Below are positions 19,141 to 31,308 of a stretch of DNA of 43,824 nt, in pieces. The stretch spans positions 1 through 43,824 of the forward strand of contig JAJPXY010000150.1 of the NCBI GenBank assembly GCA_021205205.1. The letters are read 5' to 3'. Both the position numbers and the translations under genes were made by a program. Origin of the DNA: Clostridiales bacterium. GTDB taxonomy: Bacteria > Bacillota > Clostridia > Oscillospirales > Oscillospiraceae. Within the stretch, counting starts at the first letter, position 1, and each line of letters begins with the position of its first letter. The notes under the pieces were generated by a model. It was given only the letters and a program-made list of their open reading frames with translations. It was not told where the DNA came from and did not search any database.

Positions 19141-19183
19141 AACAGGGAGACGGCGCGGAGCCGTCTCCCTGTTGCTTATTTTT
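19141..19183 (+). terminator. Intrinsic terminator between convergent DUF2974 gene and malQ
   Basis: AACAGGGAGACGGC-gcgga-GCCGTCTCCCTGTT followed by gcttattttt. Confidence 0.8.
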
Positions 19184-20696
19184 CGCTATTTTCGTTGTCC
19201 CAGTTCATGCGGCCAAAGAGCTTGGCGGTCTGTAGGATTTCCGCCTGTAACGTCGGCGTCAGCTCCGGTTCCGTGACCCGCCAGCGCCAGTTGGTGCCGA
19301 TGGTGGAGGGTTTGTTGATGCGGCACCGGTTGTCGCAGCCCAAATAGTCCTGCAACGGGACGATGCAGACGGCGGCGGCGGAGCGCTGGATCAGGCCGAT
19401 CATGGAGCGGTACAGCTCCTCTTTGGGCGTAGCCTGGTCACACAGGTAGCGCCGGACCATGGCTCGCTCCTCCTCCCGGATGCTGTCGAACCAGCCCACC
19501 AGGGTCTCGTTGTCATGGGTGCCGGTGTAGGCCACGCAGTTTTCAATGTAGTTGTGGGGCAGGTAGTCGTTGGCGGAGCCGGAGTCCCGGGAGTCGAAGG
19601 CAAATTCCAGCACCTTCATACCGGGAAACCCGCTGTCCCGCACCAACTGCCGCACCGAGTCGGTCACATAGCCCAAATCCTCCGCGATGACCTGGTGCCA
19701 CCCCAGCCGCCGCTCCATGGTGCGGAACAGCTCCAGGCCGGGGCCTTTTTCCCAGTGGCCGTTGCAGGCGGTGGTCTCCCCGTAGGGGATGGAGAAATAC
19801 TCGTCGAACCCCCGGAAATGGTCGATGCGCACCACGTCGTACATCTGGAAGCAGAACCACAGGCGGCTCATCCACCAGTCGTAATCGGTCTGTTTGTGGT
19901 AGTCCCAGCGGTAGAGGGGATTGCCCCACAGCTGGCCGGTGGCGGAAAAACCGTCCGGCGGGCAGCCCGCCACGGCTACGGGGGTGTTGCTGTCGTCCAG
20001 CTGGAACAGCTCCGGGTGCGCCCAGGCGTCGGCGCTGTCCATGGCCACATAGATGGGGATGTCGCCGATGATTTGGATGTGCTTTCCATTGGCGTAGGCT
20101 TTCAGGGCCTTCCACTGTTTGAAAAACAGGTATTGCAGGTACTGCTGGAATTCGATGTCGTAATACAGCTCCCGCCGGTAGTAGTCCATGGCGTAGCCCC
20201 AGCGCAGACGGATGTCCTCCGCCCACTCGGTCCAGGGCTTACCGCCGAAACGGCTTTCCACCGCCATGAACAGGGCGTAATCCGACAGCCACCACTGGTT
20301 TTCCGCCACGAATTGCAGATAGTCGGCGTTGTGACTGACAGCGGCCCGCTCGTAGGCTTTGTGCAGCAGAGGATAACGCGCGTCGTAGAGCTTTTTATAG
20401 TCGATGTCCCGCTCGTCCGTTCCAAAGTCCAACCCGTCGCACTCCGCCCGGGTCAGGACGCCCTCCTCCACCAGCGCGTCCAGGCTGATGAAGTAGGGGT
20501 TCCCCGCGAAGGTGGAGAAGGACTGATAGGGGGAATCCCCATAGCTGGTGGGACCGAGGGGAAGGATCTGCCAATAGGACTGACCAGCAGCGGCCAGCCA
20601 GTCCACCCAGTCATAGGCGTTTTTGGAAAAGCTGCCGATCCCGTACCGGCCTGGCAGACTGGCCAGGGGGAGCAAAATACCCGTGGCTCGTTTCAT
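19176..20696 (-). CDS. malQ: 4-alpha-glucanotransferase (GH77)
   Basis: MKRATGILLPLASLPGRYGIGSFSKNAYDWVDWLAAAGQSYWQILPLGPT; VRIDHFRGFDEYFSIP. Confidence 0.97.
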   Translation of the reverse strand: MKRATGILLPLASLPGRYGIGSFSKNAYDWVDWLAAAGQSYWQILPLGPTSYGDSPYQSFSTFAGNPYFISLDALVEEGVLTRAECDGLDFGTDERDIDYKKLYDARYPLLHKAYERAAVSHNADYLQFVAENQWWLSDYALFMAVESRFGGKPWTEWAEDIRLRWGYAMDYYRRELYYDIEFQQYLQYLFFKQWKALKAYANGKHIQIIGDIPIYVAMDSADAWAHPELFQLDDSNTPVAVAGCPPDGFSATGQLWGNPLYRWDYHKQTDYDWWMSRLWFCFQMYDVVRIDHFRGFDEYFSIPYGETTACNGHWEKGPGLELFRTMERRLGWHQVIAEDLGYVTDSVRQLVRDSGFPGMKVLEFAFDSRDSGSANDYLPHNYIENCVAYTGTHDNETLVGWFDSIREEERAMVRRYLCDQATPKEELYRSMIGLIQRSAAAVCIVPLQDYLGCDNRCRINKPSTIGTNWRWRVTEPELTPTLQAEILQTAKLFGRMNWDNENSEK

Positions 20697-20773: not shown

Positions 20774-22492
20774 TTACTTCTCCTCCAGGCTGACCACCAC
20801 AAACTGATACCCTTCCAGGTACAGCTGCCCGTCCTCCACGCGGAAGGAATCCAGGTTGTTCAGCAGCACCTTGTCTGCCGTCAAGCGGCACTTCCGGGGC
20901 TGCGCCCCTCCCTGCACCGGAGCGGGCAGAGCCATGGCCTGGGGCTGGCGCTGGAAGTTCCCCGCCACCAGCAGGGTTTTCTCGCCCCTGCGGTAGTAGG
21001 CCATCAGGTTTTTCTGCTCTGCCAGATAGGGGATGAGTTCGCCGTAGACCACCGTCTCCGCCCAGGCGGGGTCCTTCCGCAGCTGAATGAGCTTGCGGTA
21101 CCAGTTGTAAATCGAATCCTCGTCGTCGATTTCGGCGGCCAGATTGATGGTCTGGTAGTTGGGATTCACCGGCAGCCAGGGGGGCCGGTGGTGAACCCGG
21201 CGTTGGGGGAGTCGTCCCATTGGAAGGGGGGTGCGGGCGTTGTCCCGGCAGTGCATTTGGATGCTCTTCAGCGCCTGAGCAGGGGAGAGGCCCGCGTCCA
21301 GCGCCACCTGGTACTGGTCCAGAGTGGAGACGTCGTTGACCTGGGAGATGTCCTGGACGACGTGGTTCTCCATGCCCAGCTCCTGGCCCTGGTAGATCCA
21401 GGGCAGGCCCCGCAGCATAAAGTACAGACCGGCCAGCATTTTCTTGCTGGTGGGGGAGAGGTCCTCCTCCGGGATGTAGCGGCAGACGCCCCGGGATTCA
21501 TCGTGGTTTTCGATGATATTGGACAAAAAGCCGACACCGGCGGTCTTTTTTTGGCTCTGGAAGCAGGCGGCCTTGTACTGCTCCGCCGTGACAGGGGTCT
21601 GGTCGTACCAGCCCTTGTCACTGCGGTTGAGGATGGTTTCCGCAAAGTCGAACATACTGGAGAAATAACCGTTGTCACCAATGAACTCCGGAATTTCCTC
21701 CGGCTTCTCGTTGAACACCTCGCCCACGGTGAAGGCGTTGTGGGGAGCAAAGGCCTTGTCCCGCATCTCGCCCAGGAACTGGCCAATGCCGGTGGCCTGT
21801 TCCAGCATACGGTCGATGCTGCACAGACCGTCCTCCCGGTCGGCGGGGAAGTCCCGGAAGGGCAGCAGCTTTTTGATGTTCATGATGGCATCAATGCGGA
21901 AGCCGCCCAGCCCTTTGTCCAGCCACCAGTTGACCATCTTGTAGACTTCCTCCCGCAGGTCGGGGTTCTCCCAGTTCAGGTCAGGCTGCTTTTTGTGGAA
22001 GGCGTGGAAGTAGATTTTATCATCGTGGCCGGGGAGCTTCTCCCAGCAGGGGCCGCCGAAGTAGCTGCGCCAGTTGCAGGGGAGAGGGTCGCCTTCCTTC
22101 CAGTCCCGGATGTAGAAGAACTTGCCGTATCTGCCGTCGGGGTCGGCGCAGGCCTTTTGGAACCACTCGTGTTCGTCGGAGCAGTGGTTCACCACCAGGT
22201 CCATGACGATGGAGATGTCACGCTGTTTGGCCTGGGCCAGCAGCTCGTCCACGTCGTCCATGGTGCCAAACAGGGGGTCGATGCAGTAGTAGTCGGAGAT
22301 GTCATAGCCCTGGTCGGCCAGGGGGGAGCAGTAGATGGGGGAAAGCCACACGATGTCCACGCCCAGACCTTTCAGGTAGTCCAGCTTGCTGATGATTCCT
22401 TGCAGGTCGCCCACACCGTCGCCGTTGGAGTCGCAAAAGCTCTTGGGGTAGATCTGATAGGCCACCTTTTCATGCCACCATTTGCGAGTCAT
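20774..22492 (-). CDS. GH13 alpha-glucosidase / oligo-1,6-glucosidase (contains compensated frameshift segment and inserted element copy D)
   Basis: [72 protein letters not shown]. Confidence 0.92.
   Translation of the reverse strand: [572 protein letters not shown]
20877..20914 (-). repeat. Coding-embedded two-hairpin element, copy D
   Basis: Minus strand CAGGGAGGGGCGCAGCCCCGGAAGTGCCGCTTGACGGC; encodes within [16 protein letters not shown]. Confidence 0.85.
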
Positions 22493-22596
22493 AGTCAAAT
22501 TCCTCCTGTAATAGAGCAATATGTGTTAGGACAGCCAGAAGCCTCTCTACTTTTGAAACTGTCTTATTAATAAGATAACAAAGCGGGGAGAGGTTG

Positions 22597-22624
22597 TAAA
22601 GAGGTTATGTACATAACCTCTTTA
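22597..22624. promoter_or_regulatory. 28-bp perfect palindrome containing operator-like GGTTAT-N4-ATAACC
   Basis: TAAAGAGGTTATGTACATAACCTCTTTA in the divergent GH13/lacI intergenic region. Confidence 0.75.
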
Positions 22625-22660
22625 TGGCACAAAATATGTTCTTTTGTTTTGTGAAAATGG

Positions 22661-22680
22661 ATGGTTATGAAGATAACCAT
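22661..22680. promoter_or_regulatory. Second operator-like palindrome
   Basis: ATGGTTATGAAGATAACCAT; same GGTTAT-N4-ATAACC core. Confidence 0.7.
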
Positions 22681-22765
22681 GTGAAAATGTTTGACAAACA
22701 ATCATTTTTGTCCTATTTTTTTAATAGCGATACAAATCGAACAGTTTGCAGGGAGGGAACCAGGC

Positions 22766-23796
22766 ATGGTCACGATCAAAGAGATCGCCGCGCGGGCGGG
22801 TGTCAGCACGGCGACAGTCTCCAATGTTCTGCACGGGAATTTGAAAAAAGTTTCCCCGGCTACGGTGGAGAAGGTCCGAAAACTCATCGACGAGATGGGG
22901 TATGTCCAGAGCCAGGGTCCCCACGCCGCCCTGAAGGGAGGCTCCCATCTGGTGGCGGTCATCGTCCAGTATCAGATCGGCGTGGAAAACTCTCTGCTGA
23001 CCGACCCCTTCTACGGGGTTGTTATCGGCGTCATCGAGCAGGCGCTGAAAAAGCACGGATATGATATTATATGCTGTTTTACTCGTCAGATAATGTAGAC
23101 AACATCTTCAAGACGATTATGGGCTGGAACGTGGACGGCGTGATCGCCATTTCCTTCTCCGATGTGAACTGCGAAAAGCTCAACCAGACGACAAAAAAGC
23201 CCATCATTGCCATCGACTGCTTCTATTCCGGCAAACAGAACCAGAGCAGCGTTCCCAACATCGGTCTGGACGACCGGATGGGCGGCTACCTGATGACCCA
23301 CCACCTGATGAAGGCGGGGTACGAGTCCGTGTACGTCTGTTGCTACCGGAACTACGGCGTGGACGCCTGGCGCTGGCAGGGGGCGCAACAGGCCCCGGAG
23401 GAAGCCGGGGAAATGGGCAGCGGCTGCAAGCTGAAAATGATCGAGCTGGGCACCACCGCCGAGGAGCGGGAAAGAACCTACCGGGAGATCATGCGGCAAA
23501 TGCCCTTCCGCGGCAAAACGGCACTGTTCTTCACGGCGGACATCCTGGCGATGGAGGCATACTATTTCCTGCTGCGGGGTGGCGTAAAGATTCCCGAGGA
23601 CGTGGGCATCGCCGGATTTGACGACAACGCCGAGGCCATCGGGTTTTCCTTCCTGCGGCTGACCACGGTCCGCCAGGACTTCTCCGCCAAGGGGCGGCTG
23701 GCGGTGGAGGAGTTGGTCAAAGCCATCGAGGACCCGACTTATCAGATGCGTTCCCATTCGCTGCCGGTCTCGCTGGTGCTGCGGGACTCCGTGTAA
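22766..23796 (+). pseudogene. LacI/GalR-family regulator, split by a frameshift at ~23069
   Basis: ORF 22766-23098 MVTIKEIAARAGVSTATVSNVLHGNLKKVSPATVEKVRKLIDEMGY...KKHGYDI; continues in another frame from 23071 MLFYSSDNVDNIFKTIMGWNVDGVIAISF...PEDVGIAGFDD...LVLRDSV*. Confidence 0.88.
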
Positions 23797-23941: not shown

Positions 23942-23957
23942 GGTTATCAAGATAACT
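23942..23957. promoter_or_regulatory. Third operator-like site upstream of second GH13 gene
   Basis: GGTTATCAAGATAACT, matching the 22603 and 22663 sites. Confidence 0.65.
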
Positions 23958-23959
23958 CA

Positions 23960-23988
23960 TTTACAAAAGAGACGAAATGTGATATTTT
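23960..23988 (+). promoter_or_regulatory. Candidate promoter for second GH13 gene
   Basis: TTTACA-17 nt-TATTTT; overlapped by the inverted repeat TGTGAT-attttA-ATCACA (23978-23995). Confidence 0.4.
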
Positions 23989-24073
23989 AATCACAGCGTT
24001 AGTAATGCGCGTAACCTGAGCAAACCCCCCTTTGGCCCTTGCATATTTTATTGTAAAACGAAGGAGACTGACC

Positions 24074-25867
24074 ATGGCACGCAATTGCAAGGAGAAGCGC
24101 AGCTTCGGAAGTACCGCTCGACGGTGGTGGAAAGAGAACGTTGTCTATCAAATCTACCCCCGCTCGTTCTGCGACTCCAACGGAGACGGCGTAGGCGATT
24201 TGAACGGCATCCGCTCCAAGCTGGGCTATCTCAAGGAACTGGGCATTCACATTCTATGGCTCAGCCCGGTCTACAAATCCCCTAACGACGACAACGGCTA
24301 TGACATCGCCGACTACCGGGCCATTATGGACGAGTTCGGCACCATGGAGGACTTCGACGCCTTGCTGGCCGAGGCCCATCAGATGGGCATCAAAATCGTC
24401 ATGGACCTGGTGGTGAACCACACCTCCGACGAACACCAGTGGTTCGTGGAGAGCCGCTCCTCCCGCGACAACGACAAGCGGGACTATTACATCTGGCGGG
24501 AGGCCGTGGACGGCCACGAGCCAAACAACTGGGGCAGCTGCTTCTCCGGCTCCGCCTGGGAGTGGGACGAGACCACCGGGATGTATTACCTCCACTGCTT
24601 CTCCAAAAAGCAGCCCGACCTGAACTGGGAGAACCCCAAGGTCCGGGACGAGGTCTTTGACATGATGACCTGGTGGTGCGAGAAGGGCATCGACGGGTTC
24701 CGCATGGACGTGATTTCCATGATCTCCAAGAAAGAGGGACTGCCCGACGGACCGGTAGAGGGCCTCTACAGCCCCTGTATGTACGGCACCTGCAACGGCC
24801 CCCACGTCCACGAGTACCTCCAGGAGATGAACCGCCGGGTCCTCTCCAAGTACGACCTGATGACTGTGGGCGAGACCGCGGGCGTCACCGTGGAGGAGGC
24901 AAAAAAGTACGCCAATGCCGAGGGCACCGAGCTGAACATGGTGTTTCAGTTTGAGCACGTGGGTCTGGACGAAGGCCCCGGCGGGAAGTGGTCCATCACC
25001 CCCATGTCCATCCCCGCCCTGAAAGAGAACCTGACCAAGTGGGAAAAGGAACTGGACGGCGTGGCGTGGAACTCCCTGTTCTTCTGCAACCACGACCAGC
25101 CCCGGGTGGTCTCCCGGCTGGGGGACAACTCCCCCCAGTCCGCCAAGTGCATCGCCACCATGCTGCACTTCATGCAGGGCACCCCCTACGTCTATCAGGG
25201 CGAGGAGCTGGGCATGACCAACTGCCCCTTCGGCTCCATCGAAGACTACCGGGACATCGAGAGCATCAACGCCTATCGGGAACTGACCGAGGCGGGCCTG
25301 CGGCAGCCGGAGGAGCTGCTGGAGTGCATCGCCTACAAGAGCCGGGACAATGCCCGAACCCCCATGCAGTGGGACGACTCCCCCAACGCCGGGTTCACCA
25401 CCGGCCAGCCCTGGATCATGGTCAACCCCAACTACACCACCATCAACGCGGCGGCGGAGCTGGCAGACCCGGATTCCGTGTTCAATTACTATAAGCAGAT
25501 TATCGCCTTGCGGCAGGACAGCAAGTGGTCTGACGTCATCGTCTACGGCAGCTACGACCTGCTGGCCCCGGAGGCAGGGAGAAGCGCAGCTTCGGAAGTG
25601 CCGCTTGACGGCAACGAGGCGGTCTTTGCCTACACCCGGCACAGGGAGGGGCGTAGCCCCGGAAGTGCCGCTCGACGGCAGAAGGACGGCGTGACGCTGC
25701 TGGTGGTCTGCAACCTCTCCGACCAGGCCCGGACCTTCCCGGTCCCCGAAAATGTCCAGTGGGACAGCGCGGAGCTGGTGACAGGGAACGTGCCCCAGGC
25801 CGACCTGACCCTGACCCGTGAGCTGGCCCTGGCCCCCTGGCAGGCCGCCGTTTGGGCGCTGAACTGA
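24074..25867 (+). CDS. GH13 alpha-glucosidase / oligo-1,6-glucosidase (contains element copies A, B, C)
   Basis: [87 protein letters not shown]. Confidence 0.95.
   Translation: [597 protein letters not shown]
24088..24125 (+). repeat. Coding-embedded two-hairpin element, copy A
   Basis: CAAGGAGAAGCGCAGCTTCGGAAGTACCGCTCGACGGT; encodes [12 protein letters not shown] at the N-terminus. Confidence 0.8.
25575..25612 (+). repeat. Coding-embedded two-hairpin element, copy B
   Basis: CAGGGAGAAGCGCAGCTTCGGAAGTGCCGCTTGACGGC; encodes [13 protein letters not shown]. Confidence 0.88.
25642..25679 (+). repeat. Coding-embedded two-hairpin element, copy C
   Basis: CAGGGAGGGGCGTAGCCCCGGAAGTGCCGCTCGACGGC; encodes [13 protein letters not shown]. 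Confidence 0.88.
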
Positions 25868-25878
25868 TTTTGCATACC

Positions 25879-25967
25879 GGGGGAGTACGCTCCCCCGCAA
25901 ACCGGCGAAACACAGCGCTGTGTTTCTTCTGTTTCCTGACGGAAACAGAAGATAATAAGTGTTCGCC
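25879..25967. repeat. Cluster of three hairpins with enclosing GGCGAA/TTCGCC arms
   Basis: GGGGGAG-tacg-CTCCCCC; GAAACACAGCGCTGTGTTTC; CTTCTGTTTCC-tgac-GGAAACAGAAG; outer GGCGAA (25904) ... TTCGCC (25962). Confidence 0.65.
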
Positions 25968-26042: not shown

Positions 26043-27446
26043 ATGAAGAAACTGCTTGCATTGATCCTGGCACTGGCAATGGCGCTGAGCCTGGTTGCCT
26101 GCGGTGGCTCCAGCTCCGACACCACCGGCGACAGCTCCGCTGCCGCCGACACAACCTCTGATTCCACCAGCACCTCCTCCTCCGGCACCACCGGCGACAG
26201 CTCCGCTGCCGCCGACACAACCTCTGATTCCACCAGCACCTCCTCCTCCGGCACCACCCTTCGCCTGGTCAACGGCAAAATCGAAGTCGACTCTCAGCTG
26301 AAAAAGCTGGCCGAGATGTACGAGGAAGAGACCGGCGTCACCGTGGAGATCGAGTCTCTGGGCGGCGGCGTGGACATCCAGGGCACCCTGAAGGGCTACT
26401 ATCAGGCCGACAATATGCCCGACATCTTTGTCAACGGCGGCGCCACCGACTTCGCCAACTGGGAAGGTCTGCTGGTTGACATGAGCGACCAGGCTTGGGC
26501 CTCTGACACCGACTCCGCCTATGTGGACGATGAGTACGGCACCATCGGCTTCCCCTACACCGTGGAAGCCATCGGCATGGCCTACAACGCCGACATGCTG
26601 GAGACTGCCGGTATCGACCCCTCCACGCTGACCTCTCCTTCCGCCTATGAGGAAGCCTTTGCCACTCTGGACTCCATGAAGGACGAGCTGGGCATCACCG
26701 CTGTGGTGGGCTACTACACCGAGCCGGTCAACCTCTACTGGTCCACCGGCAACCACGTGTTCGCCAACTATCTGGACGCCGGCCTTGACCGGGACGACAC
26801 CACCTACATCGACCTGCTGAACGACGGCGGCCAGCTGGACACCGAGCGCTTCGCTGACTTCGCCAACTTCGTTGACCTGCTCCAGCAGTATGCCGACCAG
26901 GATATGATTATCTCCGGCACCTATGACCAGCAGATCCTGAACTTCGCCTCCGGTGAGTACGCCTTCGTCACCCAGGGCAACTGGATCGGAGCCACCACGA
27001 CCTCCGACGACGCTGATGCCTATGAGTCCGCCGGCAACTTCCAGGCTGGTCTGGCTCCCTTCGCCTTTGAGGACGGCATCGACACCATCCTGACCTGCTC
27101 CCCCTCCTGGTGGTCTGTTTACAGTGGCAGCGAGAACGTGGACGCGGCTCTGGAATTCCTCCAGTGGCTGACCACCGATGAGGCCCAGCAGGTGCTGGTG
27201 GAAGAAGCTGGCTTCATCAGCCCCTTCACCTCCTGCGCCTATACCGCCACAGATCCCTTCGCCGAGTCCGTCTCCAGCTACATCGCCGAGGGTAAGACCT
27301 CTAACTGGCACTGGAACAACATGATCGAGGGCCTCGCCCAGAACTACACCGGTCAGGTCTTCAACGACTTCGCCCAGGGCAGCCTGGATGTGGACGGCTT
27401 CGTCTCCGCTATGGAGCAGGTCTGCGCCAGCGCCTATTCCGGCTAA
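26043..27446 (+). CDS. Sugar (maltose/maltodextrin-type) ABC transporter substrate-binding lipoprotein
   Basis: MKKLLALILALAMALSLVACGGSS lipobox; SBP family 1 architecture; next to two MalF/MalG permeases. Confidence 0.93.
   Translation: MKKLLALILALAMALSLVACGGSSSDTTGDSSAAADTTSDSTSTSSSGTTGDSSAAADTTSDSTSTSSSGTTLRLVNGKIEVDSQLKKLAEMYEEETGVTVEIESLGGGVDIQGTLKGYYQADNMPDIFVNGGATDFANWEGLLVDMSDQAWASDTDSAYVDDEYGTIGFPYTVEAIGMAYNADMLETAGIDPSTLTSPSAYEEAFATLDSMKDELGITAVVGYYTEPVNLYWSTGNHVFANYLDAGLDRDDTTYIDLLNDGGQLDTERFADFANFVDLLQQYADQDMIISGTYDQQILNFASGEYAFVTQGNWIGATTTSDDADAYESAGNFQAGLAPFAFEDGIDTILTCSPSWWSVYSGSENVDAALEFLQWLTTDEAQQVLVEEAGFISPFTSCAYTATDPFAESVSSYIAEGKTSNWHWNNMIEGLAQNYTGQVFNDFAQGSLDVDGFVSAMEQVCASAYSG
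26121..26252 (+). repeat. Perfect 66-bp tandem duplication (2 copies) within SBP linker
   Basis: TTGDSSAAADTTSDSTSTSSSG x2, identical at the nucleotide level, units 26121-26186 and 26187-26252. Confidence 0.95.
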
Positions 27447-27482
27447 ATTTGGCCTGAACCTCTCTTTGCTGTAAGCATCCAC

Positions 27483-27518
27483 AGATGGACAGCAGCTCCG
27501 CTGCTGTCCATCTTTCCG
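27483..27518 (+). terminator. Hairpin between SBP and permease genes (attenuator/stabiliser)
   Basis: AGATGGACAGCAGC-tcc-GCTGCTGTCCATCT followed by ttcc. Confidence 0.6.
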
Positions 27519-27657
27519 AAATGCCCGCATTTTCCGCGCAGAGAACCTGACAAGCGGGTCTGGAGCGGGAAAATGTTCTTGACAAATCCGTTCTGAATCG
27601 CCTCCGCACAGGGGACGCGAAAAAGAAGTAAATTGGAAAGAAAGGGGAATCCAAACA

Positions 27658-28704
27658 ATGGATCAAAACACAACCGGCAAAAAAATCCTGTCGCTGGTTT
27701 TGCTGGTGGCGGGTGTGGCCCTGCTGGGAGTTTCGCTGGCGCTGGACTTTATGGGTTCCAGTGCTTCCTACCGGGGACCAATGCTCATTGTGGGGGCTGT
27801 CGCCCTGCTGATGGGCCTGTATTACTTCCCCACCCTGACCAAGCATCGGAGCATCGTCAACTTCCTGTTCCTGTTCCCGCTGCTGTTCACCTTCGCCGTC
27901 ACCGTCATTATCCCGTTGGTGCTGGGTATCTTCTACTCCTTCACCGACTGGACCGGCATTCAATACACTGAGTTTGTGGGCCTGGCCAACTACATCGCCA
28001 TGTTCAAGGAGACCAGCTTCCTGTGGTCGCTGATCATCACGGTCCTGTTCGTGGTGTTCAACATGATTTTCGTCAACGTGGTGGGCTTCTGCCTGGCGCT
28101 GCTGTGTACCAGCCGCCTGAAGGGCGTGGGCTTCTTCCGGGCCGCCTACTTCCTGCCCAACCTGATTGGCGGCATCGTCCTGGGCTATATCTGGCAGTTC
28201 GTGTTCAACAACGTCCTGGTGCAGGTCACCGGTACCTCGCTGCTGAGCAAGACGCCCACCGCGTTTGCGGCCATCATCGTGGTCTATATCTGGCAGTACG
28301 CGGGCTACATCATGCTGATTTACATCAACGGTCTGGTCACGGTCCCCGGCGACGTGCTGGAGGCCGCCGCCATCGACGGCGCCAATGCGGTCACCACCCT
28401 GTTCCGCATCAAGCTGCCCATGATTGCCTCCACCATCACCATCTGCACCTTCCTGACCTTGACCTCCGCCTTCAAGCAGTTCGATGTCAATATGGCCCTG
28501 ACCAACGGCACCGGCTCGGTGCAGTTCCTGGGCAACTACCTGACCAACGGCACACAGATGCTGGCGCTGAACATCTATAACACCGCCATCTCCAAGAACA
28601 GCTATGCCCTCGGACAGGCTAAGGCCGTGCTCTTCTTTGTCATTCTGGCCTGCGTCTCGCTGATTCAGGTCCGCGTGTCCAACAGCAAGGAGGTGGAGAT
28701 GTAA
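27658..28704 (+). CDS. Sugar ABC transporter permease (MalF-like)
   Basis: Multiple TMs; EAAAIDGANAVTTLFRIKLPMIASTI EAA loop. Confidence 0.93.
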   Translation: MDQNTTGKKILSLVLLVAGVALLGVSLALDFMGSSASYRGPMLIVGAVALLMGLYYFPTLTKHRSIVNFLFLFPLLFTFAVTVIIPLVLGIFYSFTDWTGIQYTEFVGLANYIAMFKETSFLWSLIITVLFVVFNMIFVNVVGFCLALLCTSRLKGVGFFRAAYFLPNLIGGIVLGYIWQFVFNNVLVQVTGTSLLSKTPTAFAAIIVVYIWQYAGYIMLIYINGLVTVPGDVLEAAAIDGANAVTTLFRIKLPMIASTITICTFLTLTSAFKQFDVNMALTNGTGSVQFLGNYLTNGTQMLALNIYNTAISKNSYALGQAKAVLFFVILACVSLIQVRVSNSKEVEM

Positions 28705-29570
28705 TGAAAACCAAGCTGAAAACCTCTCACCTGATTGCCATCATGGCGGTGGCTATTGTGGTGGCGGCGTATACGCTGATGCCCTTCTTCCTGGTGGTCA
28801 TCAACGTGTTCAAGAACGCCAACGGCATCGTGGCCAACCCCGTCGGCTTCGCCGGGATGAGCGTCAGCCAGTTGATCACCAACCTGACCAGCGTCATCAA
28901 CAACTCCAACTTCAGCTTCTGGTCCGCGTTTGGCACCTCCGCTGTCGTCACTATCCTGTCCCTGGTGCTGCTGGCCGTGTTCGGCGGCATGGCCGCGTGG
29001 GTCATCTGCCGGAACAAGACCAAGTGGTCCTCCGCCATCTATATGGTGTTCATCGCCTCCATGATCATCCCCTTCCAGGTGGTCATGCTGCCGCTGATCT
29101 CCACCTTCCGGGACGTGGGCAAGTTCGTGGGCCTGTCCATGCTCCAGTCCATCCCCGGCATCGTCTTTGCCTACTGCGGCTTCGGCGGAGCCATGACCGT
29201 GTTCATCCTGACCGGTATGATCAAGACCATCCCCTACGACCTGGAGGAGGCCGCCTCCATCGACGGCTGCTCCTATGAGGGCATCTACTTCCACATCATC
29301 TTCCCGCTGCTGCGGCCGTCCATCGTCACCGTCACCATCCTGAACGGTATGTGGATCTGGAACGACTACCTGCTGCCCTCCCTGATGCTGGGCCAGAGCG
29401 GCAAGGTCAAGACCTTGCCCGTGGCAGTGCAGGCGTTCGTCGGCTCCTACGTGAAGCAGTGGGACCTGATCCTGACCGCCGCGCTGCTGGCCATGATCCC
29501 CATGATCATCATCTTCCTGATTGCTCAGAAGCAGATCATGAGCGGCATGGTGGAAGGCGCTGTCAAGTAA
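28704..29570 (+). CDS. Carbohydrate ABC transporter permease (MalG-like)
   Basis: EEAASIDGCSYEGIYFHIIFPLLRPSIVTVTI EAA loop; ATG overlaps the preceding TAA by 1 nt. Confidence 0.94.
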   Translation: MKTKLKTSHLIAIMAVAIVVAAYTLMPFFLVVINVFKNANGIVANPVGFAGMSVSQLITNLTSVINNSNFSFWSAFGTSAVVTILSLVLLAVFGGMAAWVICRNKTKWSSAIYMVFIASMIIPFQVVMLPLISTFRDVGKFVGLSMLQSIPGIVFAYCGFGGAMTVFILTGMIKTIPYDLEEAASIDGCSYEGIYFHIIFPLLRPSIVTVTILNGMWIWNDYLLPSLMLGQSGKVKTLPVAVQAFVGSYVKQWDLILTAALLAMIPMIIIFLIAQKQIMSGMVEGAVK

Positions 29571-30414: not shown

Positions 30415-31308
30415 ATGGATATTTATCAGCGCAGGCTGTCTCGCATCGGGGCGGATGGGCACGAACTGGTCACCCACGGGTCGGCGGACTTTCCCTTAGC
30501 CTGTTATGGGTGTGTGCTTACAGATAGCGCCCTCCCCTGGCACTGGCACGACGAGCTGGAGGTCAACGTGGTGCTGGAGGGGACGGTATCCTTCGCCGCA
30601 GGCAGCGGGAGGCACACCCTCCGGGCCGGGGAGGGGCTGTTTGTCAACAGCGGCGTCCTCCATTCGGCGCGAAACGCTGGAGAAGGAGCCTGCCGCATCT
30701 ACTCTTTTGTGTTCCACCCCCGGCTGGTGGGCGGCGACCCGGGCAGCGTGTTCTGGCAGGACTACCTCTCCCCACTGTTGGCCGCCCGCAGCGTAGAGGG
30801 TGTGACGCTGCGGCCCGACGTGCCCTGGCAGCGGGAGGCGCTGGAGCGCTTCCAACAGGCGGACGCCGCCGTCCGGGAGGAGCCGCCTGGGTATCCCTTC
30901 CTGGTGCGGGAAGGAGTGTCCTGGTTGATGTATCTGGTCGCTGCCCATCATCCGACCCGGCCCCAGCCCTCGGAGAAGGCCCAGCGGGACGCCCAACGGG
31001 TCAAAACCATGCTCCAATTCATCCAAACCCATTACGCAGACAACCTCACCGTGGAGCAGATCGCCCGCAGCGCCTCCCTCAGCGCCAGCGAATGCCTGCG
31101 GTGTTTTCACGCCACCATCGGCAGCACCCCCATCCAGTACGTCAAGCAGCTGCGGGTGCAGCAGGCGGCGGTGCTGCTGTCCACCACCGACCGGAAGGTG
31201 GCCGACATCGGCGCTCAGTGCGGCTTCCAGGAAACCAGCTACTTTTCCAGGGCGTTCCGCAGCGTGCAAGGGTGTACCCCTTCGGAGTACCGGCGGCGGC
31301 TGGGCTGA
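30415..31308 (+). CDS. AraC-family transcriptional regulator
   Basis: Cupin N-terminus (WHWHDELEVNVVLEGTVSFAAG) and AraC HTH (VADIGAQCGFQETSYFSRAFRSVQGCTPSEYRRRLG). Confidence 0.93.
   Translation: MDIYQRRLSRIGADGHELVTHGSADFPLACYGCVLTDSALPWHWHDELEVNVVLEGTVSFAAGSGRHTLRAGEGLFVNSGVLHSARNAGEGACRIYSFVFHPRLVGGDPGSVFWQDYLSPLLAARSVEGVTLRPDVPWQREALERFQQADAAVREEPPGYPFLVREGVSWLMYLVAAHHPTRPQPSEKAQRDAQRVKTMLQFIQTHYADNLTVEQIARSASLSASECLRCFHATIGSTPIQYVKQLRVQQAAVLLSTTDRKVADIGAQCGFQETSYFSRAFRSVQGCTPSEYRRRLG

Follow-up and report, generated by a model that had tools for sequence, protein, structure and literature searches.

A family of palindromes of the form GGTTA-N6-TAACC surrounds a regulator gene between two GH13 genes in a Clostridiales genome, which raises the question of which protein reads these sites and what its binding does to the neighbouring genes. 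In the window, that is, the whole stretch of 43,824 nucleotides analysed here, GH13-1 and then GH77 lie on one side of the divergent region, and lacI, GH13-2 and an ABC sugar transporter lie in that order on the other (Table 1). Judged by comparison of sequences, the palindromes are a genuine operator family, conserved and of an ordinary kind, set apart by two uncommon traits, namely a changed regulator hinge together with a relaxed operator centre, and a fixed position beside the -35 box.

Palindromic sites and their conservation

The three palindromes that an earlier note on this DNA had reported match the DNA exactly at the positions claimed, and the one of 28 bp, site 1, is indeed perfect. 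It is the longest perfect palindrome in the window, and base composition would lead one to expect 0.0003 perfect palindromes of this length per window and 0.016 per genome. When up to two mismatches are allowed, the motif is found three times in the window versus 0.5 times expected from shuffles, and three matches were reached in only 1 of 100 shuffled windows. When up to one mismatch is allowed, sites 1, 2 and 3 are the only matches in the organism's own genome (2.16 Mb). The genome scan that the earlier note had proposed thus finds the motif confined to this locus; abundance at random genomic positions, which that note had named as refuting operators, is not observed.

Table 1. Features of the locus and their positions in the window
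Feature	Position	Strand	Description
GH77 4-alpha-glucanotransferase	19176..20696	-	Downstream of GH13-1
GH13-1, alpha-glucosidase-type enzyme	20774..22492	-	Predicted target of site 1
Inferred GH13-1 promoter	22572..22600	-	TTTACA-N17-TATCTT, TG before -10; -35 box 2 bp from site 1 core
Operator site 1	22597..22624	.	28-bp perfect palindrome, core GGTTATGTACATAACC at 22603-22618; upstream of GH13-1
Operator site 2	22661..22680	.	Core at 22663-22678; upstream of lacI, 59-60 bp from site 1
Inferred lacI promoter	22691..22719	+	TTGACA-N17-TATTTT
lacI-family regulator gene	22766..23796	+	Two frames, 22766-23065 and 23071-23796
Operator site 3	23942..23957	.	Upstream of GH13-2
Inferred GH13-2 promoter	23960..23988	+	TTTACA-N17-TATTTT, TG before -10; -35 box 2 bp from site 3
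Operator site 4	24001..24016	.	Weaker, added here: AGTAATGCGCGTAACC, 3 mismatches, central CG
GH13-2	24074..25867	+	Oligo-1,6-glucosidases are its nearest relatives by sequence; sites 3 and 4 are predicted to act on it
ABC sugar transporter	26043..29570	+	A solute-binding protein with two permeases; these probably belong to the unit as downstream members

In the window as well as in five relatives (L005, L007, L008, L010 and L011), site 4 follows site 3 at a distance of 59 bp, which resembles that between sites 1 and 2. Site 4 falls at approximately +7 to +22 of the transcript inferred for GH13-2. DNA looping across the 59-60-bp spacing, which amounts to about 5.7 helical turns, found no support and was set aside.

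A perfect palindrome would also fold as RNA, and site 1 could in principle act as an RNA hairpin, either a terminator or an attenuator. However, the palindrome is located upstream of the inferred starts of both divergent genes, is not followed by a T-run and is absent from the terminator scan list, and sites 2 and 3, which are shorter, have nothing but the half-site letters in common with it, the pattern that protein binding would give. No Rfam family matched at threshold, the better of the sub-threshold matches being a eukaryotic histone stem-loop, and an RNA element was accordingly discarded as extremely improbable.

Site 1 recurs at the same place in six close relatives (L005-L008, L010 and L011), site 2 is present in these and in L009, and site 3 is identical in L005, L007, L008, L010 and L011, part of it being deleted in L006. 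Across seven genomes, 25 of the 28 columns of site 1 and 12 of the 16 columns of site 2 are invariant, versus 101 of 198 elsewhere in that region; the inferred lacI promoter has 23 invariant columns out of 29, and neither GH13 promoter varies in its -35 box. The gene order GH77, GH13, lacI, GH13 is retained in L034-L037, with the transporter next in L035-L037. In addition, the same operator layout between two GH13 genes is found in L069, from a different genus of the family.

Several further candidates did not survive. Low-scoring composite matches elsewhere in the family were dismissed because a reversed control pattern gave similar numbers, and GGTTACAGAAGTAACC (G000 contig C63:582-597, and relatives) was rejected as a regulon member because it also occurs in genomes without this regulator. 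The latter is itself a conserved palindrome, which in G007 (L131) lies within a hairpin-like repeat beside a small hydrophobic ORF (MSTSEFYQFCLVIIGIVGLFFQAKKK...), possibly a gene for a small holin-like peptide. A paper on IolQ/DegA was likewise rejected as a motif match, the letters having come from primers; the IolQ/DegA site is AGAAAGCGCTTTCT.

The regulator and its recognition helix

The regulator carries an N-terminal LacI-type HTH (Pfam PF00356, 62.9 bits, cut-off 27) and a C-terminal sugar-binding-protein-like domain (Peripla_BP_3, 75 bits), and the palindromes near its gene and the predicted targets are even and of constant spacing, as in systems of the LacI family. With the intact ortholog of L037, none of the NCBIfam equivalogs (RbsR, CytR, MalI, CcpA and others) scored above its curated cut-off, the best being RbsR with 139 bits (cut-off 382), and MalI and CcpA reaching 84 bits (310) and 77 bits (442), respectively.

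LacI relatives were gathered from the genus, family and order, and the motif was sought beside each gene. All 22 LacIs with the recognition helix STATVSN (T15, A16, N20) have GGTTA-N6-TAACC beside the gene (21 in scan range, and L115 at +438, just outside that range), versus none of the 48 LacIs with other helices, even such near ones as STATVSK, STATVSY and NTTVSNVIHG. This co-occurrence, the count of which overstates independence because the 22 LacIs are related and not independent trials, makes the neighbouring LacI very probably the binder. Moreover, at each of the four loci checked in a sister clade the operator precedes a MATE transporter gene, indicating that it tracks the helix and not the target. 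The dimer would read GGTTA in each half-site through T15, A16 and N20. LacIs with the same helix and the same operator are located directly upstream of MATE efflux genes in L109-L112, an unusual target for the LacI family.

In the window, lacI is broken and a gene for an AraC-family protein (30415-31308) is near, and the sites might belong to this protein or to a global regulator. Such an assignment is highly improbable, as the motif accompanies the STATVSN helix and no other, also where the target is a MATE gene, and as the sites that a global regulator would be expected to have elsewhere are not found in the organism's own genome at up to one mismatch. Confinement to one locus of the genome, conservation at orthologous loci, co-occurrence with a single helix and the fixed position against promoters described below make it very probable that the sites are operators of the LacI-family regulator whose gene stands between GH13-1 and GH13-2, which is how the earlier note had read them. 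This LacI would control two divergent groups of alpha-glucan or oligosaccharide genes in addition to its own gene, and the gene content suggests maltose or a related alpha-glucoside as the effector.

The regulator gene of this genome is disrupted near 23063-23070 by a small change in length, and intact orthologs are present in nine genomes of the same genus. The dN/dS values against L037 are low in both halves (0.03/0.30 and 0.06/0.44), which argues that the break is recent or an artefact. With the gene broken, it is doubtful that the circuit still works in this genome, and it may not be active in this particular strain. The break itself consists of a few extra bases within a short repeat-like ATATG/ATATT/ATATG stretch (23063-23070), which the relatives lack.

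Other irregularities were noticed in the coding regions. At about 21190-21240 (-), two close, mutually compensating small frame changes in GH13-1 scramble approximately 20 residues in a conserved part of GH13, and, together with the broken lacI, they are hints of locus decay or of assembly errors. The GH13-2 coding sequence contains, at 24090-24125 and about 25580-25690, inserted short repeats like GAGAAGCGCAGCTTCGGAAGTACCGCTCGACG that vary between relatives and have the look of a small repeat that spreads and that genes tolerate. A 20-bp perfect palindrome, GAAACACAGCGCTGTGTTTC (25907-25926), lies in the gap separating GH13-2 from the gene for the solute-binding protein, and the N-terminal linker of this protein (26100-26260) carries a Ser/Thr/Asp-rich segment duplicated in tandem (TGDSSAAADTTSDSTSTSSSG, two copies).

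Operator centre and hinge helix

The earlier note had further described the sites as lacking the usual central CG. This stands for the three sites of the window, whose centres are TA (site 1), AA (site 2) and AA (site 3), and for site 3 generally, as all five intact copies in relatives are centred on AA, but it does not extend to site 1, the centre of which is GCGC in all six close relatives. Among even LacI-family motifs, 1173 of 1251 have a CG centre, making it typical but not strictly defining (Ravcheev et al. 2014, PMC4052901). The contact behind it is known from the structures of LacI, PurR and CcpA: Leu at AA-54, present in 82% of LacI-type domains, inserts at the central CG, and Ala at AA-51 is tied to that contact too, exceptions being rare (Camas et al., PMC2978694).

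The combination of Ala AA-51 and Leu AA-54, likewise typical of the family but not strictly defining, is absent from the window's clade, where the hinge has Pro at AA-51 and Ala, Val or Gln at AA-54; in L013 and L069 the AA-51/AA-54 positions are Phe/Ile and Lys/Arg. With the same recognition helix and half-sites, 7 of the 25 sites in the changed-hinge clade have CG centres versus 11 of 13 in canonical-hinge sisters, a comparison that covers only two clades and has an exception in L012. A hinge without the CG-gripping residues would leave the middle letters free to vary, and the chances appear evenly balanced that loss of the hinge contact is what relaxed the operator centre.

The two changes may instead have coincided in one ancestry without being cause and effect, an account given somewhat less than an even chance. 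It gains from the small number of clades compared, from L012, in which Leu is kept at the AA-54 position yet the sites are non-CG, and from site 1, which in six relatives still has a CG although the hinge is altered. Against it are the marked difference in CG content between clades that share half-sites and recognition helix, and the structural grounding of the hinge mechanism (PMC2978694).

Position against promoters and comparison with known systems

At the inferred promoters of GH13-1, GH13-2, the MATE gene and the lacI of L109, the operator lies 1-2 bp upstream of the -35 box, the promoter spacer is 17 bp, and the operator centre is at -44.5 or -45.5. At the lacI of the window, the centre of site 2 is at -55.5 relative to the inferred start, 10 bp or about one helical turn further away. 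A fixed position at unrelated promoters would suit a regulator that touches RNA polymerase and thereby activates. A LacI bound 1-2 bp upstream of the -35 box would most likely touch RNA polymerase, so that the genes would switch on when an alpha-glucoside is present, and site 4, which falls within the leader of GH13-2, might contribute repression in the converse state.

The same operators and regulator could also be arranged as a classical inducible repressor, in which the dimer beside the -35 box excludes RNA polymerase until sugar releases it, with help from site 4 in the leader at GH13-2. Repression is the usual mode of the LacI family, as exemplified by MalR of Streptococcus pneumoniae (PMC4451989). 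In addition, site 4 is situated where repressors act, which like the habit of the family tells against pure activation, and the good -35 and -10 boxes of the sister promoters should need no activator. However, repression calls neither for a constant distance of 1-2 bp across unrelated promoters nor for the 10-bp shift seen at lacI, and site 4 is weak and was not found outside the close relatives; repression thus appears plausible, at rather less than an even chance. Activation as the main mode is slightly favoured over repression, and the promoter geometry gives it roughly the chance of a coin toss. A more specific proposal, which at present seems unlikely, is a LacI subgroup without the hinge-leucine/central-CG kink, whose two HTH heads would bind beside the -35 box and activate through contact with RNA polymerase.

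The two clades with the same helix and half-sites, one with an intact and one with a changed hinge, constitute a natural comparison that offers a direct test of hinge residues and the central CG. Moreover, an operator and a promoter layout are hereby assigned, on sequence grounds, to a regulator group in the little-studied Clostridiales, and one operator code appears to serve unrelated targets, sugar hydrolases and MATE transporters.

Cra/FruR, another LacI-family protein, acts as an activator when bound immediately ahead of the -35 box, at about -45. The present regulator resembles it in the location of a LacI-family protein at about -45, and is a local one. MalR of S. pneumoniae and MdxR of Enterococcus faecium are LacI-type regulators encoded beside, or controlling, maltodextrin genes, with GH13 enzymes, an ABC transporter and even palindromic operators as here, a likeness of genomic setting only; the MalR operator, CGCAAACGTTTKSG, has a CG centre (PMC4451989), unlike GGTTA-N6-TAACC with its variable centre. 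MdxR is an activator of maltodextrin genes as established by genetics (PMC3737153), and as such a precedent for activation by a member of the LacI family.

With respect to the centre, the nearest counterparts are the even LacI-family motifs without CG, 49 different and 29 degenerate ones among 1251 (Ravcheev et al. 2014, PMC4052901), which share with the present motif the even palindrome, the constant spacing and the degenerate centre; here, by contrast, degeneracy of the centre accompanies an altered hinge helix, and sisters with the same recognition helix keep CG. CytR, an unusual member of the LacI family, likewise has a relaxed contact between half-sites, but it tolerates variable spacing and acts together with CRP (PMC3454398), whereas the operators of the regulator described here keep a constant spacing and differ in their central letters only.
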